Positions 4,580 through 20,094 of a stretch of DNA of 64,000 nt are shown here, piece after piece (positions within the stretch are counted from its first letter, which is position 1; each line of letters opens with the position of its first letter). The notes beneath the pieces are model-generated. The model saw nothing but the letters and a program-made list of their open reading frames with translations. It searched no databases and was not told the origin of the DNA. The stretch is from Pseudomonadota bacterium. Its GTDB lineage: Bacteria; Pseudomonadota; Alphaproteobacteria; Sphingomonadales; Sphingomonadaceae. Both the position numbers and the translations under genes were made by a program. The stretch spans positions 110,993-174,992 of the forward strand of contig JAKPAG010000098.1 of assembly GCA_029779535.1 (NCBI GenBank). Reading direction: 5' to 3'.

Positions 4580-5449
4580 TCAACGCGTCGGCACTGGGGC
4601 ATCACCGGTGTAGTCGTAGAAGCCACGACCGGTCTTGCGGCCCAGCCATCCGGCTTCGACGTATTTGACCAGCAGCGGGGCAGGGCGATACTTGCTGTCG
4701 CCGGTGGTGTTGTAAAGCACCTTGACGATGTCGAGGCAGGTGTCGAGCCCGACGAAATCCGCCAGTTCCAGAGGCCCCATCGGATGGTTGAGGCCAAGGC
4801 GGCAGCCCTTGTCGATATCGGCGATGCTGGCAGTGCCCTGGCCCAGCACGAACACGGCCTCGTTGATCATCGGCAGCAGGATGCGGTTGACGACGAAGCC
4901 CGGCTCGTCCTCGGCCTGGACGACCTGCTTGCCCAGGCTTTCCGCGAAGGCGCGCGTGCGGGCCACAGTATCGGCGCCGGTCGCGAGGCCCGGGATCACC
5001 TCGATCAGGCCCATCACCGGAACGGGATTGAAAAAGTGCAGGCCGATGAAGCGCTTGGGATCGGGCGAGCTGGTCGCCATGCGGGTGATCGGGATCGAAC
5101 TGGTGTTCGACGCCATGATCGCGTCCTCGCGCAGCACCTTGCCGGCCGCTTCGAAGATCTTGCGCTTGATTTCTTCCTTCTCGGTCGCCGCCTCGATGAT
5201 CAGGTCGGCTTCGGTGAACAGGGCATAGTCACCCACCGGGGTGATGCGCGCCAGGGTGGCCTCGGCTTCGGCCGGAGTCAGCTTTTCGCGGGAAACCAGG
5301 CGGGTCAGCGCCTTGTCGATATTGGCCTTGGCCTTTTCCGCCAGGGCCACGTCGATGTCGGACAGCAGAACCTTCATGCCGCACTGGGCCACCTGCTGGG
5401 TGATACCCGAACCCATCTGGCCCGCGCCGATAACCGCCACTGTCCGCAT
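4580..5449 (-). CDS. 3-hydroxybutyryl-CoA/3-hydroxyacyl-CoA dehydrogenase
   Basis: A 289-residue NAD-dependent dehydrogenase oxidising L-3-hydroxyacyl-CoA to 3-ketoacyl-CoA. The N-terminal Rossmann motif is GAGQMGSGITQQ, followed by an acidic SDID that favours NAD. ASNTSSIPIT and GLHFFNPVPVMGLIEV carry the catalytic Ser and His of the family, and EPGFVVNRI begins the C-terminal helical dimerisation domain (GPLELADFVGLD). The ATG at 5449 is preceded by GGGAATGGGAC, so it is preferred over the ORF-track start at 5476. The next gene upstream (adenosyltransferase) ends 62 bases away and is co-oriented. A role in butanoate, polyhydroxybutyrate or fatty-acid metabolism is general to the family. Confidence 0.9.
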   Translation of the reverse strand: MRTVAVIGAGQMGSGITQQVAQCGMKVLLSDIDVALAEKAKANIDKALTRLVSREKLTPAEAEATLARITPVGDYALFTEADLIIEAATEKEEIKRKIFEAAGKVLREDAIMASNTSSIPITRMATSSPDPKRFIGLHFFNPVPVMGLIEVIPGLATGADTVARTRAFAESLGKQVVQAEDEPGFVVNRILLPMINEAVFVLGQGTASIADIDKGCRLGLNHPMGPLELADFVGLDTCLDIVKVLYNTTGDSKYRPAPLLVKYVEAGWLGRKTGRGFYDYTGDAPVPTR

Positions 5450-5511
5450 GTCCCATTCCCTTCGCACTTGCAGCAAACGCGAGGCTGACTAGCGGGGGAA
5501 ACCGCGCTTGG

Positions 5512-6081
5512 CTAGCGATTCTGGCCCGGCACCCACAGGACTTCGCTGCCCGCCGCGATGTTCAGGGCACGGGCCAGCACGAACAGGTAGTCGGACAGAC
5601 GGTTGATATAGGCCAGGGCCGCCGGATTGACGGGTTCCTGCGCGGCCAGCGCGGTCATCGCGCGTTCGGCGCGGCGGGTGGTGGCGCGGGCCACGTGGGT
5701 GTGGGCCGCGGCGGGATTGCCCCCGGGCAGGATAAAGCTGGTCAGCGGCGGCAGCGGGGCGTTGACCCGGTCGATCTCCGCCTCCAGCCAGGCGGCCTGT
5801 TCGGGCACGATCCGCAGGGTCATTTCCCCGGGGGTAAAGTCCTCTCCCGGGGTGGCCAGATCGGCGCCCAGGTCGAACAGATCGTTCTGGATCCGAACCA
5901 GCGCAGCGCGGTGCTCAAACGTATCTAGCGCGGACACCACCACACCTAGCGCGCTGTTCGCCTCATCGACCGCGCCGATCGCTTCCATCCGCGCGGCATG
6001 CTTGGGACAACGCGAACCATCGACCAGTCCGGTCGTGCCATCGTCACCCGTGCGGGTGTAGATCTTGTTCAGCTTGACCAT
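5512..6081 (-). CDS. cob(I)alamin adenosyltransferase, PduO/MMAB type
   Basis: A 189-residue enzyme that transfers adenosyl from ATP to cob(I)alamin to make coenzyme B12. The ATP-binding N-terminus KIYTRTGDDGTTGL and the later ATTRRAERA are signatures of the PduO family. The length matches single-domain members. It lies four bases from the HIG1-like gene and shares its direction, so it belongs to a short operon with that gene and the glutamyl-Q tRNA synthetase. Confidence 0.92.
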   Translation of the reverse strand: MVKLNKIYTRTGDDGTTGLVDGSRCPKHAARMEAIGAVDEANSALGVVVSALDTFEHRAALVRIQNDLFDLGADLATPGEDFTPGEMTLRIVPEQAAWLEAEIDRVNAPLPPLTSFILPGGNPAAAHTHVARATTRRAERAMTALAAQEPVNPAALAYINRLSDYLFVLARALNIAAGSEVLWVPGQNR

Positions 6082-6085
6082 GGGA

Positions 6086-6316
6086 TCACCGGCTGGCGAA
6101 CAGCAGCATGGCCACCACCATCACCGCGGCGCCCTGCCACAGGATGCGGGCCATCATCATCTTGTTCTGCTTGAGCTGCATTTCGCTCGGGCCGGTGGCG
6201 TCGCCGCGTTCAAGGTCCTCGCGGGTGCTTTGCATGAAGGCGGAGATGCCGCGGCCCAGGCTGACGAGGACCATGGCCATGGCGATGACCAGGACAGGGA
6301 TCAGGAACATGTTCAT
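6086..6316 (-). CDS. HIG1-domain-like twin-transmembrane protein
   Basis: A 76-residue protein with two hydrophobic helices (about residues 3-22 and 57-73) joined by a charged loop. QLKQNKMMMARILWQ resembles the QNKMM...R-x2-QG signature of HIG1/twin-transmembrane proteins common in sphingomonads. Mitochondrial HIG1 proteins modulate cytochrome oxidase; a like role here is inference. The ORF track merges it into a longer frame, but the ATG at 6316, five bases after the GluQ-RS stop, gives the sensible start. Confidence 0.75.
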   Translation of the reverse strand: MNMFLIPVLVIAMAMVLVSLGRGISAFMQSTREDLERGDATGPSEMQLKQNKMMMARILWQGAAVMVVAMLLFASR

Positions 6317-6321
6317 GGGGC

Positions 6322-7161
6322 TCACCCTACGCCCTTGCCGAATGAAAGGCCAGTGGGCAGCCGCCCGGCGCGCAAGGCGGCGGCGAGAGCGGGCCCGTCT
6401 TCCCCGGCGCGGCGCAGGTCGGCGAGGGCGGGGGAGCCGCGGCGCTTGGCCAGCTTGCGCCCGTCCGCCTCGAGGAGCAGCAGGTGGTGGTGCCAGACCG
6501 GCACCGGCAGGCCGAGCAGCGCCTGGAGCAAGCGGTGGATGTGGCTGGCGGCAAACAGGTCCAGCCCGCGCGTGACCAGCGTGATCCCGTCCGCCGCATC
6601 GTCGAGCGTGGCGGCCAGGTGGTAGCTCGCCGGGGCCTCCTTGCGCAGCAGCACCACGTCGCCAAACTGCTCGGGCCGGCAGACCTGCGGCCCGGCGAGC
6701 TCGTCCAGCCATTCGAGCGGTCCGGCCTGCTGGGCCGCGCGGGCCATGTCGAGCCGCCAGGCGACCGGCGCGTCCGGCGGGGCGCTGCGGCCCCGGCAGG
6801 TGCCGGGATATATCGGTCCGTCCGGCCCGAATTCGCGTGCCTGTTCAGCCACTTGCGCGCGGGTGCAGGTGCAGGGATAGAGCAGCCCCATGGCCTTGAG
6901 CCGCTCCCCCGCCGCGGCGTAGCTCGCCAGCCGTTCCGACTGGAACACCACCGGCCCGTCCCAGGCCAGCCCCAGCCATTCGAGGTCCGCCAGTATTTCC
7001 GGCACCAGGTCCGCCCGGCTGCGGGTGCCATCAATGTCCTCGATCCGCACCGCGAATTCGCCGCCGCGCTCCCGCGCCAGGTCGTGCGCGACGATCGCCG
7101 CATGGGCATGGCCCAGGTGGAGCAGGCCATTGGGGCTGGGGGCAAAGCGGGTGCGGATCAT
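6322..7161 (-). CDS. gluQ: glutamyl-Q tRNA(Asp) synthetase
   Basis: A 279-residue truncated GluRS paralogue that loads glutamate onto queuosine in the tRNA-Asp anticodon. FAPSPNGLLHLGHAHAA contains the HIGH-type motif (HLGH), KLAKRRGS is the KMSKS-type loop, and YPCTCTRAQ with YPGTC gives the Cys residues of the zinc site. The anticodon-binding domain of full GluRS is absent, as expected for this family. The ATG at 7161 starts directly at the core fold; an ATG at 7170 would add three residues. It is co-oriented with the HIG1-like gene. Confidence 0.92.
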   Translation of the reverse strand: MIRTRFAPSPNGLLHLGHAHAAIVAHDLARERGGEFAVRIEDIDGTRSRADLVPEILADLEWLGLAWDGPVVFQSERLASYAAAGERLKAMGLLYPCTCTRAQVAEQAREFGPDGPIYPGTCRGRSAPPDAPVAWRLDMARAAQQAGPLEWLDELAGPQVCRPEQFGDVVLLRKEAPASYHLAATLDDAADGITLVTRGLDLFAASHIHRLLQALLGLPVPVWHHHLLLLEADGRKLAKRRGSPALADLRRAGEDGPALAAALRAGRLPTGLSFGKGVG

Positions 7162-7280
7162 CGCGCCCATGCATCCTGTGGATTGCGCCCCGGCGCAAGT
7201 CTTGACGCGGGCGCTGCGGCGTTGTTCCATGCGGCCATGGATTGTCGCCGAACCGTCATATCGGCCTGCAACAAGAGGTC

Positions 7281-7889
7281 ATGCTCAAGGCGGAGCTGAT
7301 CGAGCGCGCGGCCCGGTTCCGCAGCGCAGAGGAGGACCCCCTCCGTCACCTGTCCGATTGTCCTGCGCTGGTCCTGAACGCGGATTATACCCCGCTCAGC
7401 TACTATCCGCTCAGTGTCTGGCCGTGGCAGACCGCGATCAAGGCGGTGTTCCTCGAACGGGTCGACATCGTCGCCACCTATGACCGCGAGGTCCATTCGC
7501 CCACCTGGTCGATGGCGATCCCTTCGGTCATCGCGCTGCGCCAGTATGTGAAACCCAGCGAGTTTCCGGCCTTCACCCGCTTCAACCTGTTCCTGCGCGA
7601 TCGGTTCACCTGCCAGTATTGCGGCAGCCCGCACCAGCTGACCTTCGATCACGTGGTGCCGCGCCGGCTGGGCGGGCAGACCAGCTGGGAAAACGTCGCC
7701 ACGGCCTGCGCACCGTGCAACCTGAAGAAGGGCGGGCGCACGCCAAAACAGGCCGGAATGCCGCTGCTGGTCCAGCCGATCCGCCCGACCAACTGGCAAT
7801 TGCAGGAACGCGGCCGGGGCTTTCCCCCGAACCACCTGCACGAAACCTGGCGCGACTGGCTTTACTGGGACGTCGAGCTGGAGAGCTGA
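7281..7889 (+). CDS. HNH endonuclease family protein
   Basis: A 202-residue protein. CQYCG...LTFDHVVPRRLGG...NVATACAPCNLKKGG is a complete HNH/McrA-type site: two CxxC pairs for structural zinc around the DH-x3-R core. The N-terminal half (LNADYTPLSYYPLSVWPWQTAIK) is characteristic of a conserved stand-alone bacterial HNH family. The ORF track begins at a TTG at 7242, but the ATG at 7281 has AAGAGG six bases upstream and is chosen. It is transcribed divergently from gluQ, and its cellular role is not established. Confidence 0.85.
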   Translation: MLKAELIERAARFRSAEEDPLRHLSDCPALVLNADYTPLSYYPLSVWPWQTAIKAVFLERVDIVATYDREVHSPTWSMAIPSVIALRQYVKPSEFPAFTRFNLFLRDRFTCQYCGSPHQLTFDHVVPRRLGGQTSWENVATACAPCNLKKGGRTPKQAGMPLLVQPIRPTNWQLQERGRGFPPNHLHETWRDWLYWDVELES

Positions 7890-7919: not shown

Positions 7920-8483
7920 TCAGGGCAGGCCAACGAACCCCATTGGCGAGGCCTTGAACTTGGCGGTCGGCGCGCCTTGCGCCAGCACGAACGCGCCCCC
8001 CGCCAGCGGGATGACCCGGTTGACGAAGTCGCTCATCGTGTCCTTCCACTTGGCGGAAATGTACAGTTCGCAAAGCTGGTCCTTGGTCTCCAGCTTGGTT
8101 TCGAAAGTAACCGTTCCGGTTACGTCGGTGGTATAACGCGACGGAGCCATGCACCCGCCCGCGCCGGTGCCGATCCCGACATCGTTGCGCCGGGTTGAAA
8201 ATACCACCGCGCTGGACGAGCGCGAGGTCTGGACCAGTTCGAACACGATCATGTCGTCGACCACGCAGGTCCCCTTGTCCAGGTCCGTCGAATTGATCAC
8301 CTGGGTGCCCTTGTAGCGTGTGAAGGGCATCAGCGTGTCGATCGTGCTTTCCGCCTGGACGATCCGCGCGCGGTTGCAATCGCCTTCGTAAACCACGTTC
8401 TGCGCCTGTGCGGCCGATGTCGCGGCAAGGCCAGCCAGGGCCAGCAGGCCGCTTGCGATACGGATTGTTGCCATTGTCGTCAT
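7920..8483 (-). CDS. exported hypothetical protein of the kinase/FHA/Hsp70 gene run
   Basis: A 187-residue protein with a clear Sec signal peptide (IASGLLALAGLAATSAAQAQ, cleavage near residue 28). The mature part has five or so Cys residues (GDCNRARI, GTCVVDD, GGCMAPS, QLCEL), which could form disulfides, and is predicted to be beta-rich. I recognise no family. It starts ten bases after the stop of the Hsp70-like gene and is co-oriented with the seven genes upstream, so it is likely the last gene of that operon. It may be an envelope component, or a partner of the kinase's Cys-rich outer domain. Both ideas are inference. Confidence 0.65.
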   Translation of the reverse strand: MTTMATIRIASGLLALAGLAATSAAQAQNVVYEGDCNRARIVQAESTIDTLMPFTRYKGTQVINSTDLDKGTCVVDDMIVFELVQTSRSSSAVVFSTRRNDVGIGTGAGGCMAPSRYTTDVTGTVTFETKLETKDQLCELYISAKWKDTMSDFVNRVIPLAGGAFVLAQGAPTAKFKASPMGFVGLP

Positions 8484-8493
8484 TCCCCCTGTG

Positions 8494-10014
8494 TCAGACG
8501 TCCATCGTGTTGATGCGCAGCCCCGCCAGGGCCTTGCGCTGCCGTTCCAGGTCGCGCCCGCCCCCGGTCAGGTCCTCGAACGCGAAGGGGACCACCGCCT
8601 GGCTGGCGGCGTCCACCACTTTCACGCCCAGCGTACCATCCTGGTTATAGCGGACCACGATTTCGATCATGTCGCGCCCGACCAGGTGCTTGGGCTGGAT
8701 CGCGATCCGGCCGACCGGATCGAGCAGTGTGGCATCGTCGAGATACTGGCAGATCCGCGCGGCAAAGCCGGCCGCGCCGCCCTGGGCGGGGCGGACCAGC
8801 GCGGAACCCGATGCGGGCAGGGCCATGTTCTTGTCGATCACCCGTTCGAACGCCTGCCCGGCTTCCTCCTGGATGCCGATGTTGTAGCCGGTCACGCTCG
8901 ACATGCGAACGTTGGAGACGAACTGCGCGCCGCCGCCGTCGCCGCGGGCAAAGCTGTGGGCATAAAGCGCCGCGCCCATCGCCACGCTGGCCAGGGGCTG
9001 GTCCTCGGCCAGGCTGGTGCGTTCCGGATCGAGCCGCGCCCGCCAGAAATCGCGCACCTGCCGGTTGCGGCAGGCCCCGCCGATCAGCACGAAGCGCTGC
9101 ACATCGCCCAGTTCCAGCCCCAGCCCGCGCAGGGTGCGCTGCACCACCAGCTCACTGCGCTTCAGCAGGGTTTCGGCGCGCTGGTCATAGTCCGCCGGAT
9201 CCAGCGTCCAGCGCAGGAACCTTCCGTCGACATAGGTATCGTTGGCCGGCCAGCGCGCGCCGGTCTGGCCCAGCGCGATCTTGGTCGCTTCGGCCAGCGC
9301 GGCGATCCGCTCGTCGTTCAGCGCGCCCGGTCTGGGGGCGGTGCTGAAGGCGGCGCGGAAATCGTCACGAAAGCGCTGTTCGATGATCCGGTCGAAATCG
9401 TAGCCGCCCAGGTCCGTCAGCCCGGACTTGGCCAGGATATGCACCTGATCACCAGTGCAGGTCAGCACCGACAGGTCGAACGTGCCGCCGCCGATGTCAT
9501 AGATCACCACGATCTCTTCATCGTTCAGCACGTGCCGGTTGGTGAACTGCAGGGCCGCCGCGATCGGTTCGTCCAGCAGGGCGATCACCTCGATCCCGGC
9601 GATGTCCGCGGCCGATAGCAGCGCCCGGCGCTGCTGGTCGGTAAAGTGGGCGGGCACCGTCAGCACGCAGGAATCGACCGCCTGCCCGGTGTAGATTTCA
9701 ACATCGCCGCGCACCTTCTTGAGCAGCAGGGCGGCAAACATCTCGCTGTAGAGCGGCTCCTCGCCCAGCCGGGCCAGCACGTGGCTGGTGCCGAAATGGC
9801 GCTTGAAGTTGGACACCAGCGTGGCGCCGGGGTTTTCGTGACCGAGCTTTTCCGCAAAGCTGCCGATCAGCGCCCGGTCGCCGTGCAGCAGTACCCGGCT
9901 GGGGGTGGCCTGGCTGCGCGGATCGGCCGCGTCAGGCACCAGGATGGGATCGCCTTCCACCCCGATGAACGCGGCCAGCGTGCTCGATGATCCCAGATCA
10001 ATCCCGATCTTCAT
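8494..10014 (-). CDS. Hsp70-like (actin-fold) ATPase
   Basis: A 506-residue Hsp70-family protein. The ATPase motifs are intact: IDLGSSSTLAAF (phosphate 1), YDIGGGTFDLSVL (phosphate 2), and FVLIGGACRNRQV (adenosine). It differs from DnaK: there is no EEVD-type or lid extension, and the region after the ATPase domain is only about 150 residues and does not look like a DnaK substrate domain. It belongs to the divergent Hsp70 group found beside signalling genes. The ORF-track extension to 10119 is rejected because ATG at 10014 begins exactly at the MKIGIDLG strand. It follows the PP2C gene after 43 bases and precedes the exported protein by ten. A role in remodelling the neighbouring proteins is inference. 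Confidence 0.88.
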   Translation of the reverse strand: MKIGIDLGSSSTLAAFIGVEGDPILVPDAADPRSQATPSRVLLHGDRALIGSFAEKLGHENPGATLVSNFKRHFGTSHVLARLGEEPLYSEMFAALLLKKVRGDVEIYTGQAVDSCVLTVPAHFTDQQRRALLSAADIAGIEVIALLDEPIAAALQFTNRHVLNDEEIVVIYDIGGGTFDLSVLTCTGDQVHILAKSGLTDLGGYDFDRIIEQRFRDDFRAAFSTAPRPGALNDERIAALAEATKIALGQTGARWPANDTYVDGRFLRWTLDPADYDQRAETLLKRSELVVQRTLRGLGLELGDVQRFVLIGGACRNRQVRDFWRARLDPERTSLAEDQPLASVAMGAALYAHSFARGDGGGAQFVSNVRMSSVTGYNIGIQEEAGQAFERVIDKNMALPASGSALVRPAQGGAAGFAARICQYLDDATLLDPVGRIAIQPKHLVGRDMIEIVVRYNQDGTLGVKVVDAASQAVVPFAFEDLTGGGRDLERQRKALAGLRINTMDV

Positions 10015-10057
10015 GCCTGCCCGTCCTGCCCCGACACCGTCTTGCCGTCTCCCCTGT

Positions 10058-10801
10058 TCATACCGCCAGCACCTGCACCGACACGTTGTCCGTGCTGCCG
10101 GCCGCAACCGCCAGTTCAACCAGGTAGCGCGCCGGATCGTCGCGGCACACGGCCTTGGCCATTTCGGCCTGCAATTCGGCCGGGCGATGGCATTGCAGCA
10201 TCCCGTCGCTGCAGGTCATCAGCCAGTCGCCCGGTTGCAGGCGCGCCTCGAAGAAATCGGGCTTCACATCGGCGGTCACGCCGACCGCGCGGGTCAGCAT
10301 GTTCCTGGCGTTGCTTTCCGCCGCTTCCTCCGCGGTGATCAGGCCGCTGTCGATCTGGGCCTGGACCAGGCTGTGATCGGTGGTGATCTGCACCAGCCGT
10401 CCATCGCGGAACAGATAGGCGCGCGAATCCCCGATGTTGGCAATCAGCGCGCGGCCTTGGCGGATCACCACCACGACCAGGGTGCAGCCCATGCCGTGCA
10501 GGCGCGGATCGTCCTGGGCCTGGCCGAACAGGCGGCGGTTCTGTTCGCGGATCGCGCCGTCGATCAGGCCGGACAGGGCGGCGCTGTCGGCAATCTCGCC
10601 GGCCAGCTGGTCCTCCAGCAGTTCGGCCACGCCGAACACGGTGCGCTGGCTGGCCACTTCGCCGCCGTTGTGCCCGCCCATGCCATCGGCCAGGATCGCC
10701 AGCCCCAGCGGCGCGTTGGCATAGACGCAGTCCTGGTTTTCGGACCGGGTGTTACCGATATCGGTGTGCGACCAGATGCGCAGCTGCATGGCGCCGCTCA
10801 C
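10058..10801 (-). CDS. PP2C-family Ser/Thr protein phosphatase
   Basis: A 247-residue cytosolic PP2C/Stp1-like phosphatase with all metal-site motifs: SENQD, LADGMGGHNGGEVAS, NIGDSRAYLF, TDHSLVQ, CSDGML, and GSTDNVSV. It should remove phosphate from Ser/Thr, the obvious counterpart to the kinase at the head of this gene run. The first codon is a GTG overlapping the upstream TGA (GTGA), with an alternative ATG at 10789. Length is typical for bacterial stand-alone PP2C. Confidence 0.93.
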   Translation of the reverse strand: MSGAMQLRIWSHTDIGNTRSENQDCVYANAPLGLAILADGMGGHNGGEVASQRTVFGVAELLEDQLAGEIADSAALSGLIDGAIREQNRRLFGQAQDDPRLHGMGCTLVVVVIRQGRALIANIGDSRAYLFRDGRLVQITTDHSLVQAQIDSGLITAEEAAESNARNMLTRAVGVTADVKPDFFEARLQPGDWLMTCSDGMLQCHRPAELQAEMAKAVCRDDPARYLVELAVAAGSTDNVSVQVLAV

Positions 10802-12462
10802 CGCTTGGCCAACATGTCGAACTTGCGTTCGAGCAGGGTAACCCCCTTGAGCCGGGTTTCGACGCTGGCCTGTTCCACGGCCAGGCGGCGGCGCTGTTCT
10901 TCCATCGCTTCGGCCTGGTTCTGCGACCTGGCGCGGACCGAATGTTCGATTTCGGCGTTGATCGCGGGGATCAGCTCGCGCACGTGGGCGCTGATCTGGC
11001 CCACCCAGTCGCGGGCGCTGTCGTTGAACATGCGGCGTCCCTCGTTGTCGAGCGATTCGCGCGCCTTGCGCAGGTCGCGCTCGCGCTCCTCGATCCGCTT
11101 GGCCGGGATGCGGCGGCGCAGGTCGATGAAGCCATAGACCAGCATCACCGCCACCAGGATCGCGGTAAGGAAGGTCAGGTAGGACCGGAACCGTTTCACC
11201 ACCGGCGCGATCTCGTTGATGAAGGCCAGCAGGCTGCCTTCGGGCGCGTCGGGCGAAGTGGCGACCAGGGTCAGCGGGGCGAGGATCCCGACCAGCACCA
11301 TGATCATCCCGGTATAGTCACGCAGGGCGATGAAATACTGCATCGGCCCGTCCTTGGTCACTTCCCCGTTGAACTTGCGCTGGATGTGGAAATGGGATTC
11401 CAGCACCAGGCCGGGGTTGAGCGGCGGGGCGTGCAGCGCCTTGGGATTGATCGGGGCATAGCCTTCGGCGGTCAGCAGCCCGTTGATCTGGTTGATCGAC
11501 AGATCGCTGGCTTCCTTGATGAAGCTGACGTCGTCGGCCATCTTGTCCTGCATCTGCTTGCGCAGGCGGGCCACGAAGTCATCGGTGAACTGCTCCTCGA
11601 TCTCGGTTTCGGTGGTTTCCGTCTTCGAGGCCAGCTCGATCAGCCGCATGTGATCGGCATCCAGCGCGCCCGACAGGCGTTCGGCCAGGATCTGGAATTC
11701 GCCTTTCTTGACGCGGTTGAGCTCGTCGTACTTGGTCTTGAAGGCGCGCTCAGCGTCCTGCAGGTTGCGTTGCAGGATGTTGCGGATCCGCCCGTTCAGG
11801 TCGGACCCGCCGCCCGGGCCGCCGCCAATCCGGCGCCGCGCTGCGGCATCGTCGCTCAGCAGTTGCTTGCGCAGTTCCAGCGATTTCAGCTCGTCGGCCA
11901 CGATCTGGCGGGCATAGCTGCCGATCCGCCCCAGCGATGCCTCGGTCGCGGCGCGCTGCGCTTCGGGCAGGACCTCGTTGAGCCATGCCTTGATCGCGTC
12001 TGCCGCCTCGGCCGGGCTGGGCGTCTTGACGGTCAGGCGGGTGGAGCGGGCCAGGTCGCGCACCGGCTTTTCCGCCGCTTCGGCTTCGGCCGCCTCGCAC
12101 AGCACGAACAGCGCGCGGGCCGGGGCGCTTTGCCCCTGGGTGACCTGGCGGACGGCATCGGGCAGGGCGGCGCATTCCGCCAGCGTCAGCACCGCCGCGG
12201 CGGCGGCGGGCAGGATCACGTCGTCCGACAGGGTGCTGCTGGCCGCCGTGGTCACGATCCGCACCTGCGCGCCCAGTACGGCTGGCAGGCCGCTGGCGAG
12301 GTGGGCCGCGCCCGGCGAAAGGTGCACTTCGCTGGTGCCCGCGCCATGCCCGTCGATCTTGCGCAGCGCCTGCAGCGCGACGTCGAAGAACCCTGCGCGC
12401 GATGATGCGCCCAGTTCCCGCTGCGCCCCTTCCAGCGCGTCGCGCAATACTGCCACGCTCAT
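10798..12462 (-). CDS. two-TM membrane protein with coiled-coil flanks, unknown family
   Basis: A 554-residue protein. Residues 1-150 look alpha/beta (strands such as QVRIVTTAAS and ARALFVLCEA), with no obvious Walker A. Residues 160-320 are helical and charged, including a GGGPGGGS linker near 213-220. Two membrane segments lie at about 385-402 and 428-446, joined by a 25-residue loop, and a basic coiled coil fills 450-554. The plan recalls dynamin-like or septal membrane-remodelling proteins, but without a recognisable GTPase site, so no function is claimed. ATGA and GTGA overlaps with the FHA and PP2C genes imply tight co-expression. Both termini are probably cytoplasmic. Confidence 0.75.
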   Translation of the reverse strand: MSVAVLRDALEGAQRELGASSRAGFFDVALQALRKIDGHGAGTSEVHLSPGAAHLASGLPAVLGAQVRIVTTAASSTLSDDVILPAAAAAVLTLAECAALPDAVRQVTQGQSAPARALFVLCEAAEAEAAEKPVRDLARSTRLTVKTPSPAEAADAIKAWLNEVLPEAQRAATEASLGRIGSYARQIVADELKSLELRKQLLSDDAAARRRIGGGPGGGSDLNGRIRNILQRNLQDAERAFKTKYDELNRVKKGEFQILAERLSGALDADHMRLIELASKTETTETEIEEQFTDDFVARLRKQMQDKMADDVSFIKEASDLSINQINGLLTAEGYAPINPKALHAPPLNPGLVLESHFHIQRKFNGEVTKDGPMQYFIALRDYTGMIMVLVGILAPLTLVATSPDAPEGSLLAFINEIAPVVKRFRSYLTFLTAILVAVMLVYGFIDLRRRIPAKRIEERERDLRKARESLDNEGRRMFNDSARDWVGQISAHVRELIPAINAEIEHSVRARSQNQAEAMEEQRRRLAVEQASVETRLKGVTLLERKFDMLAKR

Positions 12463-13133
12463 TTGTAAGGCGCCTTGATGATCACGGTGCGGTTGAATTC
12501 GTCATCGCTCGCCGCCGCCGCCGCGCGCGGCGCCGGGGCGTTGCCCGCGCTGAGGTGGAATACGAAGCGGCAATCGCCAAAACGCAGCCGCTCGCCCCCG
12601 TTCAGCGCGACGCGGCCGGTGATCCGGCCCGGCGCATCGCCCACGAACACCCCGTTGGTGCTGGGCTTGGCCCCGGTTTCGCCGATGTCGAACAGATGCA
12701 CGCTGGGCGGCGGGCCGGGCACCACTTCGATCACCGCGTGATTCTTGCTGACGAAATTGTCGTCCAGCACGATCGGATTGCCCATCTGGCGCGGTTCGCG
12801 GCCGATGATGTTGAGCCCGGTCTGCAAGGGGATGCGGCGCGGGGCGGGGCCGCCCACGGCTTCAAGATAGCATTCCAGCCCAGCCGCTGCGGCGCGCGGT
12901 GATGCGGCGGGGCGCTCTGCCGGGCGCGCGCGGTCCGGGGCGGCGCCGTCCTGGCCGCGCGCGGCCAGGAACGTCTCGATTTCGGCCAGGCGGCGGGCAT
13001 AGACATCGGCCAGCATCCGCGTCGGGGCGGTCTTGGCCAGGTTGGCGAAATAGCGCTGCTTTTCGCGCGCGCGCTCAACCAGCTGCGGCTCGGACGCAGT
13101 GGCGTCGAGTTCAAGCAGATCCAGAATATTCAT
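12459..13133 (-). CDS. FHA-domain protein with J-like N-terminus
   Basis: A 224-residue protein. Residues 95-200 are an FHA domain: LNIIGREP, then NFVSKNHAVIEV (the S-x2-H pair), then STNGVFVGD (the TNG turn), all needed to bind phosphothreonine peptides. Residues 1-60 (ILDLLELDATASEPQLVERAREKQRYFA) look like the first two helices of a J-domain but lack HPD. A Pro/Ala/Arg-rich linker joins the two. FHA proteins dock on phosphorylated kinases or substrates, which fits the kinase and PP2C in the same operon. The ATG at 13133 is chosen over the ORF-track start, which adds 16 unlikely residues. The stop overlaps the next start (ATGA). Confidence 0.88.
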   Translation of the reverse strand: MNILDLLELDATASEPQLVERAREKQRYFANLAKTAPTRMLADVYARRLAEIETFLAARGQDGAAPDRARPAERPAASPRAAAAGLECYLEAVGGPAPRRIPLQTGLNIIGREPRQMGNPIVLDDNFVSKNHAVIEVVPGPPPSVHLFDIGETGAKPSTNGVFVGDAPGRITGRVALNGGERLRFGDCRFVFHLSAGNAPAPRAAAAASDDEFNRTVIIKAPYK

Positions 13134-13234
13134 AAGCCCCGATCCGACAACATTCGTCTTCTTTACCCTGTCATGCTGCACGTGGCGGTCAGCCGGTGCA
13201 ATGGCTTAGTGCCGGTCATCCCGCGCCGCGATGG

Positions 13235-15166
13235 TCAACCGCCACCCAGCATGTTGCTGGCCCGTTCGGCGCAGCGCTCGGCGGCATCGGCGGATTTCGA
13301 GGCTTCGTCGGCATAGCCCTTGGCATCGGACACGGCCTCGGTCACCTGGTCGGCCAGCTTCTTCATTTCGTCGAGCAGGCGTTCGGCGTCGTGCTTGGTC
13401 GAAAGCACATCGTCGCGGGCGCGGCCCGCCTCGATCGCCCGGTCGCGGGCCTGGTCGGCATATTCCTTGGCGTCCTGTTCGTGGCGGTCGGCGGTGTCGG
13501 CGGCAACCTTGGCCTGCTTTTCGAACTCGGCGGCCTGCCGGGCGGATGCTTCGGCCTCGGTCGCCTTCTGGCAGGCCTTGGCGGCGCATTCATCGGCCTG
13601 CTGCGCGTCGCGCTGGGCCTTTTCTGCGGCGGCCTGGGCTTCCTGCGCTTCCTTCTTGGCCTCGTTGGCGTAGGTTTCGGCCTGCTTTTCGTGGACCTTG
13701 GCTTCCTCGGAGGCCTGTTCGGCCTCGCGCAGCGCGTTCTTCGCGCGTTCGCTGGCGGCCTGGGCCTCGTTCATTTCCTCGCGCGCCTTTTCGGCGGCGG
13801 CCTGGGCTTCCTTGGCTTCGGTGGATGCCTTCTCGCTCGCTTCGCGCGCCTCGCGCGCTTCGCTCGCGGCGGTTTCGGCGGCCACTTCGGCCTCGTTCGC
13901 CTTGGCCTGGGCCTTCTGGCTGAACTGTTCGGCCTCGTTGGCTTCGGTGGTGGCCTTGTTGGCCGCCTGTTCGGCGGCCTTGGCATCCTGTTCGGCGTCC
14001 TGCTTGGCTTTTTCGGCCGCCTTGGCGTCGGCTTCAGCGGCCTGCTTGGCCTTTTCGGCGGCCTGGGCGTCTGCTTCCGCGTCCTGCCTGGCCTTTTCGG
14101 CGGCCTTCGTGTCTGCTTCCGCCTCCTGCTTGGCCTTTTCGGTGGCCTGGGCGTCTGCTTCCGCGTCCTGCTTGGCCTTTTCGGCGGCCTGGGCGTCTTG
14201 TTCCGCGTCCTGTTTGGCCTTTTCGGCGGCCTGGGCGTCTGCTTCGGCGTCCTGTTTGGCCTTTTCGGCGGCCTGGGCGTCTGCTTCCGCGTCCTGCTTG
14301 GCCTTTTCGGCAGCCTGGGCGTCGCTTTCGGCGTCCTGCCTGGCCTTTTCGCTGGCCTGGGCATCGGCTTCGGCGTCCTGCTTGGCCTTTTCGCTGGCCT
14401 GGGCATCGCTTTCGGCGTCGACCTTGGCCTTTTCGGTGGCCTGGGCGTCGCTTTCGGCGTCCTGCCTGGCCTTTTCAGTGGCCTGGGCATCCTGCTGGGC
14501 GTCGCTCTTGGCCTTTTCCGCGGCCTGGGCGTCCTGCTGGGCGTCGGTCTTGGCCTTTTCGGCGGCCTGAGCGTCCTGCTGGGCGTCGGTCTTGGCTTTT
14601 TCGGCGGCCTGGGCGTCGGCTTCGGCGTCCTGCCGGGCCTTTTCGGTTGCCTGGGCGTCCTGCGCGGCGTCGGTCTTGGACTTTTCGGCGGCCTGGGCGT
14701 CGCTTTCGGCGTCCTGCTTGGCCTTTTCCGTTGCCTGGGCGTCGGCGTCGGCGTCCTGTTTCGATTTCTCGGTTGCCTGGGCGTCGGCCTCGGCATCCTG
14801 GCGGGCCTTTTCGGCCTGGGCGGCGGCTTCCTGCGCCTGGGTGGCGGCGGTGGTCGCCTCGGTCAGCTGGGCATTGGCGCGTTCGCTGGCGGCTTCGATT
14901 TCCTGGTATTCGCGCATCGCGCCGCTTTTCAGCCGCTCGGTTTCCGAGGCGTCCTGGCGCGCATCGAGCGCGGCCTGCTTGGCCTGCTCCACGCTGGAAT
15001 TGGAATCCTGCATCAAGGCGGCAAGCAGTTCCGCCTCGGTTTCGAATTGCGACAGCGTCTGGTCGAGCACCGGCAGTTCGGCCAGGATCCGCTGCTTGAC
15101 CGTTTCGGCTTCAGCCAGGATTTCCTGAAGCTGGCGCAGGATTTCAGTTGGATCGGGGTCTGCCAT
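13235..15166 (-). CDS. long coiled-coil repeat protein A
   Basis: A 643-residue acidic, Ala-rich protein with no signal peptide or membrane segment. Residues 1-117 form a helical head. Residues 118-397 are about 20 tandem copies of a 14-residue unit of the form AEKAKQDAEADAQA, exactly two heptads, so a continuous coiled-coil rod is expected. Residues 400-600 continue as less regular helix (EAQAAAEKA type), and the tail ends in SNMLGGG. The repeat recalls the helical domain of TolA, but the protein lacks TolA's membrane anchor. It sits 47 bases after its paralogue B and 101 bases before the FHA gene. A structural or scaffold role is inferred. The Ser/Thr-containing units (TEK, SEK, KTDA) could be phosphorylation sites. 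Confidence 0.85.
   Translation of the reverse strand: MADPDPTEILRQLQEILAEAETVKQRILAELPVLDQTLSQFETEAELLAALMQDSNSSVEQAKQAALDARQDASETERLKSGAMREYQEIEAASERANAQLTEATTAATQAQEAAAQAEKARQDAEADAQATEKSKQDADADAQATEKAKQDAESDAQAAEKSKTDAAQDAQATEKARQDAEADAQAAEKAKTDAQQDAQAAEKAKTDAQQDAQAAEKAKSDAQQDAQATEKARQDAESDAQATEKAKVDAESDAQASEKAKQDAEADAQASEKARQDAESDAQAAEKAKQDAEADAQAAEKAKQDAEADAQAAEKAKQDAEQDAQAAEKAKQDAEADAQATEKAKQEAEADTKAAEKARQDAEADAQAAEKAKQAAEADAKAAEKAKQDAEQDAKAAEQAANKATTEANEAEQFSQKAQAKANEAEVAAETAASEAREAREASEKASTEAKEAQAAAEKAREEMNEAQAASERAKNALREAEQASEEAKVHEKQAETYANEAKKEAQEAQAAAEKAQRDAQQADECAAKACQKATEAEASARQAAEFEKQAKVAADTADRHEQDAKEYADQARDRAIEAGRARDDVLSTKHDAERLLDEMKKLADQVTEAVSDAKGYADEASKSADAAERCAERASNMLGGG
13976..14815 (-). 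repeat. 42-bp tandem repeat in coiled-coil gene A (about 20 units)
   Basis: The DNA repeats in steps of 42 bases (for example ttttcggcggcctgggcgtc recurs), coding for the 14-residue unit. About 20 units are seen, with third-position drift between them, so the array is old enough to have diverged yet keeps exact length phase. Copy number could vary by recombination between units. Confidence 0.85.
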
Positions 15167-15213
15167 TCATTGCTCCACCACGCTGCCGCCTGATCGGGCC
15201 GCAGGACGCGTCA

Positions 15214-17169
15214 TTACTGGATGTAGTCCATGCCGCCGCCGCCGCCGCCGTAATCGCGCCGCCGCCGTTCCTCGCGGACCATGTCCATGGTGCTTTCCGT
15301 CATGTCCGCTGCCGAACAGGCGTCGAGTTCGTCCATGCCTGCTTCCATCGCGTGCGAACTGGCTTCCATCACCGCGTCGGCGGCTTCGTCGGCCAGGTCC
15401 TGCGCATCGCTGTGCAGGTCCTCGATCTCCTCCAGCGTGCGGTGCGCCGGCTCGACATAGCCGCGCGCTTCGTCCGCGCTGGAGGTGGCCTGGGTTTCCG
15501 CCTGTCCGGCCTGGGCCTTGGATTCGCCTGCCGCGCGTTCCTGGCTCTCGGCTTCCTTGGAATTTGCGTTGGCCTGGGCTTCTGCCTCCTCGGCCTCGCT
15601 CGCGCATTTTTCGGCGCGCTGCATGGCATCCCGGGCCTTGCCCATCGCCACTTCGGCTTCCCATTGGTGCATCGCGGCCTTCTGCGAGGCAACCGTTGCT
15701 TCGAACCGGTTGTCGGCGGCGCGCTGCGCGGCCTGGATGGCTTCGCGCACTTCCTGCCGCGCCTTTTCGGCGGCCTGCAGGGTTTCCTCGGCCTCCTGCT
15801 TGGCCTTGTCCGATGCTTCGGCCGCGACCGCGCGCGATGCTTCCGCCTTGTCGCTGGCCGCCTTGGCCTCGTTCATCTCGGTCTTGGCGGTTTCGGAGTG
15901 GCTGGCCGCTTCCTTGGCCTTGGCGGCGGCCTTCATTGCGAGTTGTTCCGCTTCGGCATGGGCCGCCTGGGCCTTGGCCGATTGCTGCGCGGCGACCTGT
16001 GCGTCGGTTTCGGCGGCGCTGCGCGACCGATCCGCCGCCTGGGCATCGCCTTCGGCATCGCGGGCGGACTTTTCCGAAGCCTGCGCGCTTTGCAGGGCCT
16101 GCAGCCTGGCCTTGTCGGCGGCCTGGGCATTCTGCTGGGCATCCTGCATGGCCTTGTCGGCGGCCTGGGCATCCTGCTGGGCGTTCTGCTTGGCCTTTTC
16201 GGCAGCTTCGGCATCCTGCTGGGCGTCCTGCTTGGCCTTTTCGGCCGCCTTGGCATCGCCTTCGGCGTCCTGCTTGGCCTTTTCGGCGGCGCGGGCGTCG
16301 CTTTCGGCGGCCTGCTTGGCCTTTTCCGCACCCTGGGCGTCCTGCTCTGCCGCCTGCCGCGCCCTGTCGGTGGACTGGGCATCGCTGGCTGCGGCCTGGC
16401 GGGCCGTTTCTGCGGCCCGGGCGTCGGCATCGGCACCCTGGCGGGCCTTGTCCGTGGCCTGGGCATCGCCGGCGGCATTGGCGCGGGCCTTGTCCGCGCC
16501 TTGCGCATCGGCCAGGGCGTCCTGGCGGGCCTTTTCGGCGGTCTGGGCGTCAGCTTCGGCGTCCTGGCGGGCCTTTTCGGCGGCCTGGGCGTCGGCTTCG
16601 GCATCCTGGCGGGCCTTGTCCGCGGCCTGGGCGTCCTGTTCGGCGTCCAGCCGGGCCTTTTCGCTGGCCTGGGCATCGGCTTCGGCATCCTGGCGCGATT
16701 TGTCGGCGGCCTGGGCATCGGCCTCGGCATCCAGCCGGGCGCGTTCGGACGCCAGTTGATCCTGCTGGGCGTCGGTGCGCGATTTTTCGGCGGCCAGGGC
16801 ATCGCTGGCGGCGTCCTGCTTGGCCTTTTCGGTGGCCTGGGCATCCTGCAGCGCGGCCTGCGACTTGGCCTCGGCCTCGGCGCGTTCCTGCTGGGCGCGT
16901 TCGGCCGTGCCGGTGATTTCGGTCAGCGCGGCGGTGGCGCGCTCGGAAAACCCGGTGATTTCGGCCGCGTCCTGCGCCACGTCGGTCTTGGCGCGTTCGG
17001 CGGTGAAGGCTTCCTGCCGGGTCAGGGTCAGGTTGCGCTTGATCGCGACAAAGCGCGTCGCGAATTCGCCCTGCAATTCGGCGCTCTTGAACGCGGTGAT
17101 GTCGTCCTGGATCGCGTTGAGCGCCGCGAGCAGCGTTTTCGCTTCTTCCAGCTGCTCGGTCAGGCTCAT
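15214..17169 (-). CDS. long coiled-coil repeat protein B
   Basis: A 651-residue paralogue of protein A with the same plan: a helical head (1-98), about 21 units of a 14-residue repeat of the form ADKARQDAEADAQA (99-392), an irregular helical part (393-600), and a short tail. The tail is distinct: RREERRRRDYGGGGGGMDYIQ, a basic patch followed by Gly-rich residues and aromatics, a possible docking tail. No signal peptide or membrane segment. The units are more varied than in A (DKAMQDAQQNAQA, DRARQAAEQDAQG). It begins 44 bases after the kinase stop. It is likely to pair with A as a rod or scaffold; this is inference. Confidence 0.85.
   Translation of the reverse strand: MSLTEQLEEAKTLLAALNAIQDDITAFKSAELQGEFATRFVAIKRNLTLTRQEAFTAERAKTDVAQDAAEITGFSERATAALTEITGTAERAQQERAEAEAKSQAALQDAQATEKAKQDAASDALAAEKSRTDAQQDQLASERARLDAEADAQAADKSRQDAEADAQASEKARLDAEQDAQAADKARQDAEADAQAAEKARQDAEADAQTAEKARQDALADAQGADKARANAAGDAQATDKARQGADADARAAETARQAAASDAQSTDRARQAAEQDAQGAEKAKQAAESDARAAEKAKQDAEGDAKAAEKAKQDAQQDAEAAEKAKQNAQQDAQAADKAMQDAQQNAQAADKARLQALQSAQASEKSARDAEGDAQAADRSRSAAETDAQVAAQQSAKAQAAHAEAEQLAMKAAAKAKEAASHSETAKTEMNEAKAASDKAEASRAVAAEASDKAKQEAEETLQAAEKARQEVREAIQAAQRAADNRFEATVASQKAAMHQWEAEVAMGKARDAMQRAEKCASEAEEAEAQANANSKEAESQERAAGESKAQAGQAETQATSSADEARGYVEPAHRTLEEIEDLHSDAQDLADEAADAVMEASSHAMEAGMDELDACSAADMTESTMDMVREERRRRDYGGGGGGMDYIQ
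15994..16875 (-). repeat. 42-bp tandem repeat in coiled-coil gene B (about 21 units)
   Basis: Same 42-base period as the array in gene A, coding for 14-residue heptad pairs. Units differ more from each other than in A. The near-equal number of units in the two genes suggests matched rod length, or a shared origin by gene duplication. Confidence 0.82.
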
Positions 17170-17213
17170 CGCCGAAGCTCCTTCAGATCAGGCCGCTTGA
17201 TCCAGGCTTGCCA

Positions 17214-18950
17214 TCAGTTGCAGACCTGCTTGCACTGCCGGACCGTCCGCGAGGTCGGGCCGTCCGTGTAAGAGCAGGACGCGCTGACCCGGGCGAAGCA
17301 GATGTTGCCGCCGCACTGGCCATCGGGCACCGCCGAATAGCTGACCATCGAACCCGATCCGCAGGCCCGCCGCGCCGCATCGGCGGCCTTGCCCTGCGGG
17401 ATCGAGCCGCTGGACGGGTACGAGATTTCACCCGCCGAAACGCTGGCAGTGCGCGAACGGCCGCCTTGCACCGGCTGTTCGACATCGGTGCAGACTTCGC
17501 GGCAGACCTTGGCCTTTTCCTTCTCGGGCGCGGCGACGGCCTTGACCGGTTCCGCTTCCGGTTTCGGCTTGGCCTTGTCGGTCTTGTCGGTCTTGTCGGT
17601 CTTGTCGGTCTTGTCCGGCTTGGCCGCATCCAGCGCGGAACCGCTGCTTTCGCTGGCGAGGTCGGTTGGCACGGCTTGCGGACCATCGCCGCCTCCGCCG
17701 CCCAGCCACAGGCCGATCGCGATCAGCGCGGCCACGATCAGGCCAGCCGGCAGCAGCCACTTGGGCAGGCCGGACTTTGCAGGGCCTTCGTCAGGCGCGG
17801 CAAATTCCGCTTCGTCGACGCTCTTGATGAAGATCGGGCCGGTGCCGGCTTCGGGCGGGGGCGGCACGTTGGCGGAATAGAACGCGGTGCCATCGTCGGC
17901 CCCGCCGCTGCCGCCGCCGGCCGGGGCGATGAACTGGGTGGCATCGTCAGCCACTGGTGGGCGTGCGATCGGCTGGGTGTCTTCCGGCGCGGGGGAGCGT
18001 GCCCCGGGGGCGAAGGCTTCGAAGCCCGGTTCGCCAAAGAAGCCGAGCAGTTCCGACGCCTTCTGGATGCGGTCCTTGGCATTGGCGACCAGGCAGCGCT
18101 TGACCACCGTGCGGTAGGGTTCCGACAGGCTGTCGATCTCGGCCGGCAATTCGGGCGCCAGGATCGCCGACATGATCTGTTCGGCGGTGGTATCGGCCCC
18201 GCGCTTGCCGAACGGGGTTGCGTCGGTCAGCAGCTCGTGGACCATGACGCCGTAGCCCCACAGGTCGACGTTCGACTGGATCTTGCCGTTGACCCCGAAC
18301 TTCTTGGGGTTGAACTGTTCGGGCGCCATATATTCGATGGTCCCGACCAGCATCGACGAACTGCGGGTATCCCCGCTGGCCAGGTTCTTGCTGATCCCGA
18401 AGTCGGAAATCTTGGCGGTCAATTCGCCGTTGCGTTCAACCAGCAGGATGTTCTGCGCCTTGAGATCGCGGTGGATGATCCCGTGGGCGTGCAGGTATTC
18501 CAGCCCGTGCAGCACCTGGCGCAGGAACTTGGGCAGCAGCGGCGAGCCGGGATTGGCGCGGGCAAAGCCCTTGAGGTCGCCGGCGTTGGCATATTCCATC
18601 ACGCCGATCTGGAGTTCTTCTGTTTCGCCCAGCGCGTTGGCCTGTTCCAGCAGGACCACGTCGTAATAGCGCAGCAGGTTGGGATGTTCGAGCTGGATCG
18701 CCTTGCGGATTTCGGACAGCACCGAATACTGGTCGTTGCCCGACTGGCTGAAGACCTTCAGCGCCACCTCGCGGTTGAGCAGGGTGTCGTGCGCGCGGAA
18801 CACGCGCGCGAAGCCGCCCTTGCCCAGCAGGTCCTTTGCCGGATCGTACTCGTACCGGTCCCGAATTCGCACCATGCCCCGCCACCAACCCCTGCAAGTG
18901 ATCCACAGCAGCAGCGCCGCGACTGCGCCATACAAGGGATAAACCCGCAT
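17214..18950 (-). CDS. transmembrane Ser/Thr protein kinase
   Basis: A 578-residue eukaryotic-like kinase. Kinase domain at about 30-295: LGKGGFARVF (Gly loop), VALKVF (Lys), IIHRDLKAQNILL (catalytic loop), ISDFGISKNL (DFG), GTIEYMAPEQF (activation end); all catalytic residues are present. A Pro/Ala linker follows, then one strong membrane segment (WLLPAGLIVAALIAIGLWLGG, about 405-425). Outside it lie a DKT repeat and a Cys-rich domain of about 100 residues (CREVCTD, RACGSG, GQCGGNICF, CKQVCN). That outer domain suggests an envelope sensor. The 18950 start adds another hydrophobic stretch (AAALLLW region); the internal ATG at 18875, preceded by GGCGGGG, may be the true start and gives normal PknB-like topology. 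It heads the operon with coiled-coil, FHA, PP2C and Hsp70-like genes. Confidence 0.92.
   Translation of the reverse strand: MRVYPLYGAVAALLLWITCRGWWRGMVRIRDRYEYDPAKDLLGKGGFARVFRAHDTLLNREVALKVFSQSGNDQYSVLSEIRKAIQLEHPNLLRYYDVVLLEQANALGETEELQIGVMEYANAGDLKGFARANPGSPLLPKFLRQVLHGLEYLHAHGIIHRDLKAQNILLVERNGELTAKISDFGISKNLASGDTRSSSMLVGTIEYMAPEQFNPKKFGVNGKIQSNVDLWGYGVMVHELLTDATPFGKRGADTTAEQIMSAILAPELPAEIDSLSEPYRTVVKRCLVANAKDRIQKASELLGFFGEPGFEAFAPGARSPAPEDTQPIARPPVADDATQFIAPAGGGSGGADDGTAFYSANVPPPPEAGTGPIFIKSVDEAEFAAPDEGPAKSGLPKWLLPAGLIVAALIAIGLWLGGGGGDGPQAVPTDLASESSGSALDAAKPDKTDKTDKTDKTDKAKPKPEAEPVKAVAAPEKEKAKVCREVCTDVEQPVQGGRSRTASVSAGEISYPSSGSIPQGKAADAARRACGSGSMVSYSAVPDGQCGGNICFARVSASCSYTDGPTSRTVRQCKQVCN
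17572..17616 (-). repeat. 9-bp tandem repeat (five units) in the kinase linker
   Basis: Units of gtcttgtcg (last and first slightly changed) repeat without interruption and code for DKT repeats just outside the predicted membrane segment. As a perfect in-frame short repeat it can change length by slippage without breaking the gene. Confidence 0.8.
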
Positions 18951-19110: not shown

Positions 19111-19229
19111 ATGACCATGGCGGATATGCGATGCTGATCGGCGGCAAGCTGGTTGGCGCGGACCAGCGCTTTGACGTGCTGAACCCGGCGATGGAACAGG
19201 GGGGTCAGGCGGCGCCCGCCCCGACATAG
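19111..19229 (+). pseudogene. aldehyde dehydrogenase N-terminal remnant, frameshifted and truncated
   Basis: A TAGAGG site precedes ATGACCATGGCGGATATGCG, which as it stands stops after eight codons. Restoring one T (GAT TAT) gives MTMADYAMLIGGKLVGADQRFDVLNPA, a typical aldehyde dehydrogenase start (xxLIGGKxV...FDVxNPAT). Reading then ends after about 15 more codons at a TAG, where the end of the LuxR gene begins. So the gene has a one-base deletion near its start and lacks about 90 percent of its length. Only the ORF track's long shadow frame 17208-19229 hints at it. Confidence 0.7.
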
Positions 19230-19984
19230 CCCAGCCCCGCGGCCAGCTGGATCGACTGGGCGCGGCCCGTTGCGCCCAGCTTGGCCGCGGCATTGCGCAA
19301 GTGGAACCGTACGGTCGAGACCGACACGTCGAGGATGATGCCGATTTCGCTGTCGGTCTTGCCGGCGGCGGCCCAGCGCAGGCACTGCACTTCGCGCCGG
19401 GTCAGGGTTTGCGGCACGGTGGCGTTGCGCGGCCGTCCGCGCGCCTCGTTGTGGGTGGCGACCAGCCGGGTGGCGAGCGCCTGCATGTGTTCGGCCTGTT
19501 CGGCAAAGACCCGTTCCACCCCGATCGCCTCGCTGGAACACCACACCAGCGCGCCGACCAGCCCGCGCGGCAGGTGGACCGGCGTGATGATCGCATCGCC
19601 CAGCATCGGGTGGGCCAGCAAGCCGCGGCAGTCGATCCCGCTCAGCAGGCCGGTGTCGCGCCAGGTTGCCAGCCGCCCTTGCGTATAGAAGAACGGCTCG
19701 GCCATCAGCCGTGCGGCGGTCAGCAGCGGGGCGTGCAGCGCCAGCGAACGGTCCAGCCAGTAACGGTGGCCGGGATCGATCCAGCGGAAGGTGGTTTCGG
19801 CATAGGGGCGCCCGGCCTCGTCCGCCATGGGCTGGGGGTCGCCCAGATCGGCCTGGGCGGCGATGAACGGCAGACCGATCGCTTCGCCCAGCGCGTGGAC
19901 GGCGCTGACCAGCGCGGGTAGCTGGGCCCAGCAACGTGCGCGATGATCGTCCAGTTTCAGATCCCTTCCCGATCTACCTGCCAC
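19205..19984 (-). CDS. LuxR-type transcriptional regulator
   Basis: A roughly 259-residue protein with an N-terminal alpha/beta domain of the autoinducer-binding type (WIDPGHRYWLDRSLALHAPLL) and a C-terminal LuxR helix-turn-helix (LTRREVQCLRWAAAGKTDSEIGIIL, then VSTVRFHLRNAAAKLGA). No LuxI-type synthase is visible, so it is an orphan; the ligand is unknown. The start is uncertain: GTG at 19984 or CTG at 19960 (preceded by GGAAGG) are possible, and the ORF-track start at 20116 overlaps the receptor's leader. It is divergent from the TonB receptor at 20095 and likely controls it. Confidence 0.82.
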   Translation of the reverse strand: MAGRSGRDLKLDDHRARCWAQLPALVSAVHALGEAIGLPFIAAQADLGDPQPMADEAGRPYAETTFRWIDPGHRYWLDRSLALHAPLLTAARLMAEPFFYTQGRLATWRDTGLLSGIDCRGLLAHPMLGDAIITPVHLPRGLVGALVWCSSEAIGVERVFAEQAEHMQALATRLVATHNEARGRPRNATVPQTLTRREVQCLRWAAAGKTDSEIGIILDVSVSTVRFHLRNAAAKLGATGRAQSIQLAAGLGYVGAGAA

Positions 19985-19995
19985 AGGTGACAGGT
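19983..19995. promoter_or_regulatory. ACAGGTG-ACAGGT direct repeat near the LuxR start
   Basis: Two half-sites matching the palindrome at 18996-19013 sit side by side in the spacer between the LuxR-type gene and the TonB receptor. This may be an autoregulatory or receptor-controlling site. It is a short motif, so it is suggestive only. Confidence 0.35.
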
Positions 19996-20094
19996 TGCCG
20001 CTACGCCACGAATTGCGTCCATTCAACCCAAGCCTGGTCCGGGGCGTCGCCGCGTGCGCGCTCCGTACCGGAGCATAACAAGGGAGGTTGGATA

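Follow-up and report, generated by a model that had tools for sequence, protein, structure and literature searches.

A gene cluster containing eight genes was identified on the minus strand (positions 7920-18875) of a 64,000-nucleotide stretch of DNA from a member of the Sphingomonadaceae; this whole stretch is referred to as the window. The genes encode, in order, a Ser/Thr kinase, two rod proteins, an FHA protein, a two-TM protein (2TM), a PP2C phosphatase, an Hsp70-like ATPase and, last, a protein that is putatively exported. The features are given below, with L numbers denoting loci in other genomes.

17214..18875, minus strand: Ser/Thr kinase, 553 aa (Pfam Pkinase, 7e-47; start by alignment with homologues)
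15214..17169, minus strand: rod protein B, 651 aa (period 14; paralogue of rod A)
13235..15166, minus strand: rod protein A, 643 aa (period 14; related rod beside kinase and PP2C genes at L082)
12459..13133, minus strand: FHA protein (Pfam FHA, 1e-8; homologues at L181 and L187)
10798..12462, minus strand: two-TM protein, 554 aa (L181 homologue at 5363-7039; hydropathy)
10058..10801, minus strand: PP2C phosphatase, 247 aa, Stp1-like (Pfam PP2C_2, 7e-13; NCBIfam Stp1)
8494..10014, minus strand: lid-less Hsp70-like ATPase, 506 aa (Pfam HSP70, 2e-56)
7920..8483, minus strand: last gene, putatively exported protein, 187 aa (no family; the ORF lies 10 bp past the Hsp70 stop)

The eight open reading frames are co-oriented and stand in the order first reported by a sequence-only reading, uninterrupted by internal stops (0 of 8) and with clean translations. 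That reading had described the junctions as mostly overlapping or short, which was overstated as to overlap: only two of the seven junctions overlap (FHA/2TM and 2TM/PP2C, 4 bp each), whereas the others are gaps of 10-101 bp (Hsp70/exported protein, 10 bp; PP2C/Hsp70, 43 bp; junctions flanking the rods, 44 and 47 bp; rod A/FHA, 101 bp). Two of its start positions were replaced by alignment with homologues. The kinase start moved from 18950 to 18875, which gives the N-terminus MVRIRDRYEYD and removes a spurious hydrophobic stretch, and the FHA start moved inward to 13133. The 2TM protein, the rods and the putatively exported protein match no Pfam or NCBIfam family, save for low-complexity matches to rod A.

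The GC content of the cluster is that of its flanks. Two plus-strand open frames of 665 and 707 aa (LGGLGVAFGVLLGLFGGLGV-type) lie opposite the rods at 13196-15193 and 15148-17271; they were rejected as genes and judged to be composition artefacts of the Ala-rich rod repeats. Some 330 bp upstream of the kinase gene is a co-oriented gene for a LuxR-type regulator (19205-20116, minus strand), a possible controller of the operon.

Features of the encoded proteins

The kinase is composed of a kinase domain (about residues 1-280), a disordered linker containing DDATQFIA, one TM segment (about 374-392) and an outer part. The Cys-rich outer domain proposed earlier was confirmed, with eight Cys past the single TM and a CxxxC at both ends (17214-17504, minus strand; aa 458-552). 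The catalytic motifs were also found intact, as had been claimed: GKGGFARV, VALK, HRDLKAQN and DFG in the kinase, ADGMGG, SDG and TDN in the PP2C, the site residues G-R, S, H and N in the FHA domain, and the ATPase motifs of the Hsp70s of both the window and L181, including GGGTFD in the window. The PP2C scores 221.8 bits against NCBIfam Stp1, below the cut-off of 230.

The FHA protein contains a helical N-terminal domain of about 60 aa, the FHA domain and a C-terminal tail, EFNRTVIIK, with a conserved Thr. Among the FHA proteins fetched, the N-terminal domain is common only to those of the window, L181 and L187. It has no Pfam match and was predicted by AF2 from a single sequence to form three helices (aa 1-60, pLDDT 90-97). 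Its helix pattern is like that of a J domain, with a pairwise hhalign P of 0.01 and Foldseek matches to J domains at E of about 1 (neither comparison is significant), but the HPD motif is missing and the loop reads KTAP, ENAP and ANAP. The domain may be J-like and HPD-less, an assignment that is unproven.

Outside the FHA domain the FHA-protein family is divergent, except for the tail end, which reads [D/E/G][F/Y]xxT[V/I]x[hydrophobic] in almost every one of the 17 proteins compared; L188_9 departs from this pattern. A hydrophobic +3 residue suits FHA binding. The Thr motif T[QRKE][VILFM][ILVF] was defined after inspection of the data, so that the following statistics are guides only: it is present in 18 of 55 kinase linkers, some of them related, and its count of 25 compares with 5.1 (sd 2.4) in shuffled linkers, with a maximum of 13 in 500 shuffles. 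A slightly widened form occurs once per rod head, at T7 and T38; it was found in both rods in 0.4% of whole-protein shuffles and 2% of head shuffles.

The rods are paralogues (48% identity over 520 aa). Each has about 20 tandem repeats of 14 residues, which span aa 119-398 in rod A and aa 114-393 in rod B; the latter also has a Gly-rich C-terminal tail. The lag-14 autocorrelation values are 0.49 and 0.40, against 0.15 expected. The 2TM protein contains TM segments near 384-402 and 428-446 and long predicted cytoplasmic helices; a structure computed from its single sequence (pLDDT 40) was unusable. The last gene encodes a protein with a hydrophobic, signal-peptide-like start and four Cys.

J-proteins, by means of the HPD motif, are the classical regulators of Hsp70 proteins. 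Of the residues checked, R167, N170 and T173 of DnaK serve J-docking and D393 lies in the linker; the DnaK and HscC-like rows of the alignment have all four. In the Hsp70s of the window and L181 they are replaced by A, D/E, I/V and S, respectively. R167 is the arginine that faces the HPD, and D393 is its partner at the linker (PMC7289447). The linker of these two proteins is degenerate, reading NVRMSSV (window) and PIELRSV (L181) in place of DVLLLDV, and the helical lid (SBD-alpha) is gone, the sequence ending after an SBD-beta-like part. Both proteins (phmmer 6e-97) form a clade of their own with support of 100/100 and long branches. They are like the HscC and DnaK chaperones in the Hsp70 ATPase core and SBD-beta-like domain, but unlike them in the lost lid, the replaced linker and J-docking residues, and the separate clade.

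Distribution of the cluster and its relatives

The flank at 4580-7889 contains the genes hbd-PduO-small TM-GluQ-HNH and is conserved in the genus, and therefore the contig belongs to the host genome. In 20 relatives of the same genus this HNH protein shows 79-92% identity, and among plasmid records its closest match, at 79%, is from Sphingomonas, in keeping with the earlier mention of sphingomonads. The cluster directly adjoins this conserved HNH gene, a boundary that rests on tblastn; a tblastx comparison of flanking synteny gave too much noise in this GC-rich DNA to be used. The genes had been expected to be kept together in relatives, which failed for close ones and held for distant ones. 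None of the 20 same-genus neighbourhoods, two of them on contigs that end soon after HNH, carries any of the six non-rod cluster proteins beside HNH, and 2TM was found in no other of about 800 order and phylum genomes searched, but distant genomes keep the set. The cluster is accessory, patchy and probably acquired.

The search for 2TM homologues covered 61 relatives, 401 genomes of the order and 399 of the phylum (overlapping samples), plasmids, genome_contigs and viral contigs, and no true homologue was found in these. Two weak genome matches, within AraC-like and histidine-kinase-like ORFs, and a match between the 2TM profile and ArgJ (E 0.003) were judged to be due to chance. The PP2C and FHA queries gave generic PP2Cs or no match on plasmids. 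The Hsp70 as a query yielded HscC-like and DnaK genes without kinase, PP2C or FHA neighbours.

The window kinase domain shows 66% identity over 274 aa with a kinase on a Variovorax paradoxus megaplasmid, and none of the other recognisable cluster parts was found beside the kinase in that record. An alignment of the two kinases was scanned over 84,980 species genomes; among the matches listed, six Chitinophagales/Bacteroidetes kinases stood at 42-49% and the next at 36% or less. Of 199 genomes sampled from the order to which a Chitinophagales MAG belongs, 34 have the kinase family; it was found in none of the 399 sampled genomes of the window's phylum, the window's own genome apart, and in none of the viral contigs searched. 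In the tree, the window, Chitinophagales and Variovorax kinases form one 68-row clade that is separate from other Hanks kinases and supported at 100/99; its row L166_7 sits on a very long branch. By tree path, the L187 and L181 kinases are nearest to the window kinase among those of Bacteroidota, after that of Variovorax. The outer domain is Cys-rich in the window kinase and FGE/SUMF1 in several Bacteroidota kinases.

The L181 locus lies in genome G982, which was sampled from the order of the Chitinophagales MAG and belongs to a different phylum from the window. It encodes, head to tail, a kinase with FGE, PP2C, FHA, 2TM (5363-7039; phmmer 1.2e-53), Hsp70 and an FGE protein that is putatively exported and has weak matches to ankyrin; the L181 FHA protein matches that of the window at 3e-20 (phmmer). 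A locus in a second MAG of that phylum, L082, contains genes for a kinase with FGE, a PP2C and a rod with the same 14-residue repeat, followed by the contig end, and L187 encodes FHA, a kinase with FGE, FGE and PP2C. The earlier proposal that the genes belong together is upheld for kinase, PP2C, FHA, 2TM and Hsp70, which form one operon in L181, and for kinase, PP2C and rod in L082; however, the set is not fixed, as the rods and the sensor vary.

The full five-gene core is known in two genomes, that of the window and G982. The 2TM protein and the special Hsp70 are both present in these two, and both are absent from eight kinase-family genomes searched for each and from the Variovorax record. 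The 2TM protein was found in 0 of 26 further kinase-family genomes and not on the Variovorax record; the window-type Hsp70 was found in none of 10 further genomes nor on that record (best 189 bits versus 988 in G982), all of which the 2TM search also covered. The 14-residue period of the rods, equal to two heptads, is exactly that of the L082 rod. Rods were detected in only two of six genomes tested, that of the window and G825, and are therefore an optional part of the module. At the limit used, none was found at L181 or in the rest of its genome. The L082 contig breaks inside the repeat rod, and many contigs, among them those of L082, L184, L186 and L172, stop inside a kinase-family cluster or a few genes away from it. 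As at L082, repeats may have interrupted further assemblies and so hidden rods elsewhere.

The kinase family is used far more widely than the eight-gene set, and the partners of many members are an FHA and a MotA/TolQ-like protein. This cassette of one or more kinases, FHA and MotA/TolQ-like protein recurs in many genomes of the order and was identified at L080 (5069-10121), L081, L164, L170-172, L174, L176, L177, L183 and L184. It is apparently a separate phospho-controlled membrane device, as if the device encoded after FHA were exchangeable. Other neighbourhoods were also observed. L188 (6748-16814) contains three family kinases, a MORN and caspase protein (Peptidase_C14, 6.7e-17) and an FHA protein, and is possibly a conflict-system relative. 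In L197 (10754-13845), one or more family kinases, a PP2C and a DnaJ-domain protein with an intact HPD are encoded close together.

Proposed mechanism and alternative explanations

The cluster is best read, at a probability of about 0.45, as a membrane phospho-switch, like the T6SS threonine-phosphorylation pathway, that would control the assembly of a membrane-anchored helical machine with a dedicated Hsp70. This reading is supported by gene linkage, cross-phylum homology, intact catalytic sites, the lost J-docking residues and motif conservation. Neither a name nor a description of such a gene set was found in about 5.4 million open-access papers, in keeping with the earlier statement that no named system has this make-up.

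Known systems share parts with the cluster. The T6SS pathway (PpkA/PppA/Fha) also combines an inner-membrane kinase with an outer domain, a PP2C and an FHA protein in one cluster, and in the Acidovorax T6SS, PpkA phosphorylates Fha at T640, the required phospho-acceptor Thr (PMC12607579). The window operon differs in having no tss genes, another FHA N-domain, an extra lid-less Hsp70, an orphan 2TM protein and rods. The absence of secretion and vWA genes noted earlier was borne out: neither tss families nor vWA, the TerY part of the TerY-P triad, had a match among the eight proteins in Pfam and NCBIfam. The GAP1-N2 conflict systems (Kaur et al. 2020, PMC7159879) are GTPase-centred and occur with vWA, tubulin-like, GrpE or DnaJ parts. 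In subsets of them PP2C is joined by Hsp70, in one case without the peptide-binding domain, or by an active kinase, but Hsp70 and kinase are separate themes there and none of the marker genes is present in the window cluster; no GTPase, including a TRAFAC GTPase with GAP1-N2, was detected among the eight proteins (Pfam). The window kinase scores 98.5 bits against Mad6 of the MADS defence system, where the NCBIfam cut-off is 460. Membership in T6SS, TerY-P, GAP1-N2 and MADS was rejected, at least one defining feature tested being absent in each case.

A contact- or stress-triggered conflict system (defence or death), in which the kinase would sense damage or phage and the 2TM protein and rods would form a pore or arrest device checked by PP2C and Hsp70, is the main alternative, possible but rather unlikely. 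The island is patchy and acquired, the kinase scores with the defence kinases mad6 (2.6e-60) and PD-T4-6, a family kinase adjoins the MORN-caspase protein in L188, and Hsp70s, one form without the peptide-binding domain, are part of described conflict systems (PMC7159879). However, any Hanks kinase is expected to match defence models, the PADLOC matches besides the kinase consist of the generic PP2C only at the limit used, and no nuclease, peptidase or known toxin domain was found among the eight proteins (Pfam). Slightly less likely again is an envelope or cell-shape module, with rods and 2TM as a cortical scaffold tuned by kinase and PP2C during growth. The similar length of the rods, the membrane-anchored helical protein, the envelope-type sensor and the putatively exported last gene product fit such a role, whereas the accessory nature of the cluster, its absence from relatives, the optional rods and the lack of a peptidoglycan or division gene within the operon do not.

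Descent from the T6SS pathway, as a remnant or variant whose target would be a T6SS encoded elsewhere, is very improbable. The kinase/PP2C/FHA logic is the same and the T6SS kinase is also single-TM with an outer domain (PMC12607579), but the FHA protein matches TagH (TIGR03354) at only 0.003 (17.5 bits against a cut-off of 120.25), no T6SS gene is present among the eight, and the T6SS has no 2TM, rod or Hsp70 component. That unrelated genes are merely co-oriented by chance can be given hardly any credence: close relatives do not keep the set, but the L181 operon contains the same five families, with homologous orphan 2TM and Hsp70, which refutes chance for the five-gene core.

Under the phospho-switch reading, an envelope signal would be sensed by the outer domain of the kinase in the first step. 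The kinase would then phosphorylate T313 in its own linker and partners such as the FHA tail at T216 (both numbered from the corrected starts), and perhaps also the rod heads (PDPTEILR, EFATRFVA); these targets are proposed because they share a T-x-hydrophobic-hydrophobic motif. In the third step the phosphorylated kinase would dock the FHA protein, which could be switched by its own phosphorylated tail, by analogy with GarA/OdhI and T6SS Fha. GarA/OdhI proteins dock through the FHA domain on kinase autophosphorylation sites and carry the phospho-acceptor motif ETTSVF (PMC8546545). The GarA/OdhI-PknG system is alike in that kinase autophosphorylation sites recruit an FHA protein that is switched by its own phospho-Thr, but its phospho-motif is N-terminal rather than C-terminal, its targets are metabolic, and it has no chaperone or scaffold. 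In the fourth step the lid-less Hsp70 would be brought in by the N-terminal helical domain of the FHA protein, a route without HPD, and would assemble or disassemble the 2TM-rod complex driven by ATP. PP2C, judged by its family, would reset the switch. The chaperone is inessential to the switch, because the MotA-type relatives have this kinase and FHA but no Hsp70.

A stronger proposal is speculative and considerably less likely than the phospho-switch itself: this Hsp70 would have given up J-domain/HPD control, with a phospho-reader taking it to its target, and a membrane kinase would thereby have direct control over how the Hsp70 assembles or takes apart a membrane-bound rod scaffold. If true, the Hsp70 pair would be an example from nature of a chaperone governed by phosphorylation; in both known cases every J-docking residue checked is lost, the ATPase is kept and an FHA phospho-reader is encoded beside it. 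A switch familiar from T6SS (kinase, PP2C and FHA) that would here be wired to another membrane machine suggests a general plug-in for envelope structures.
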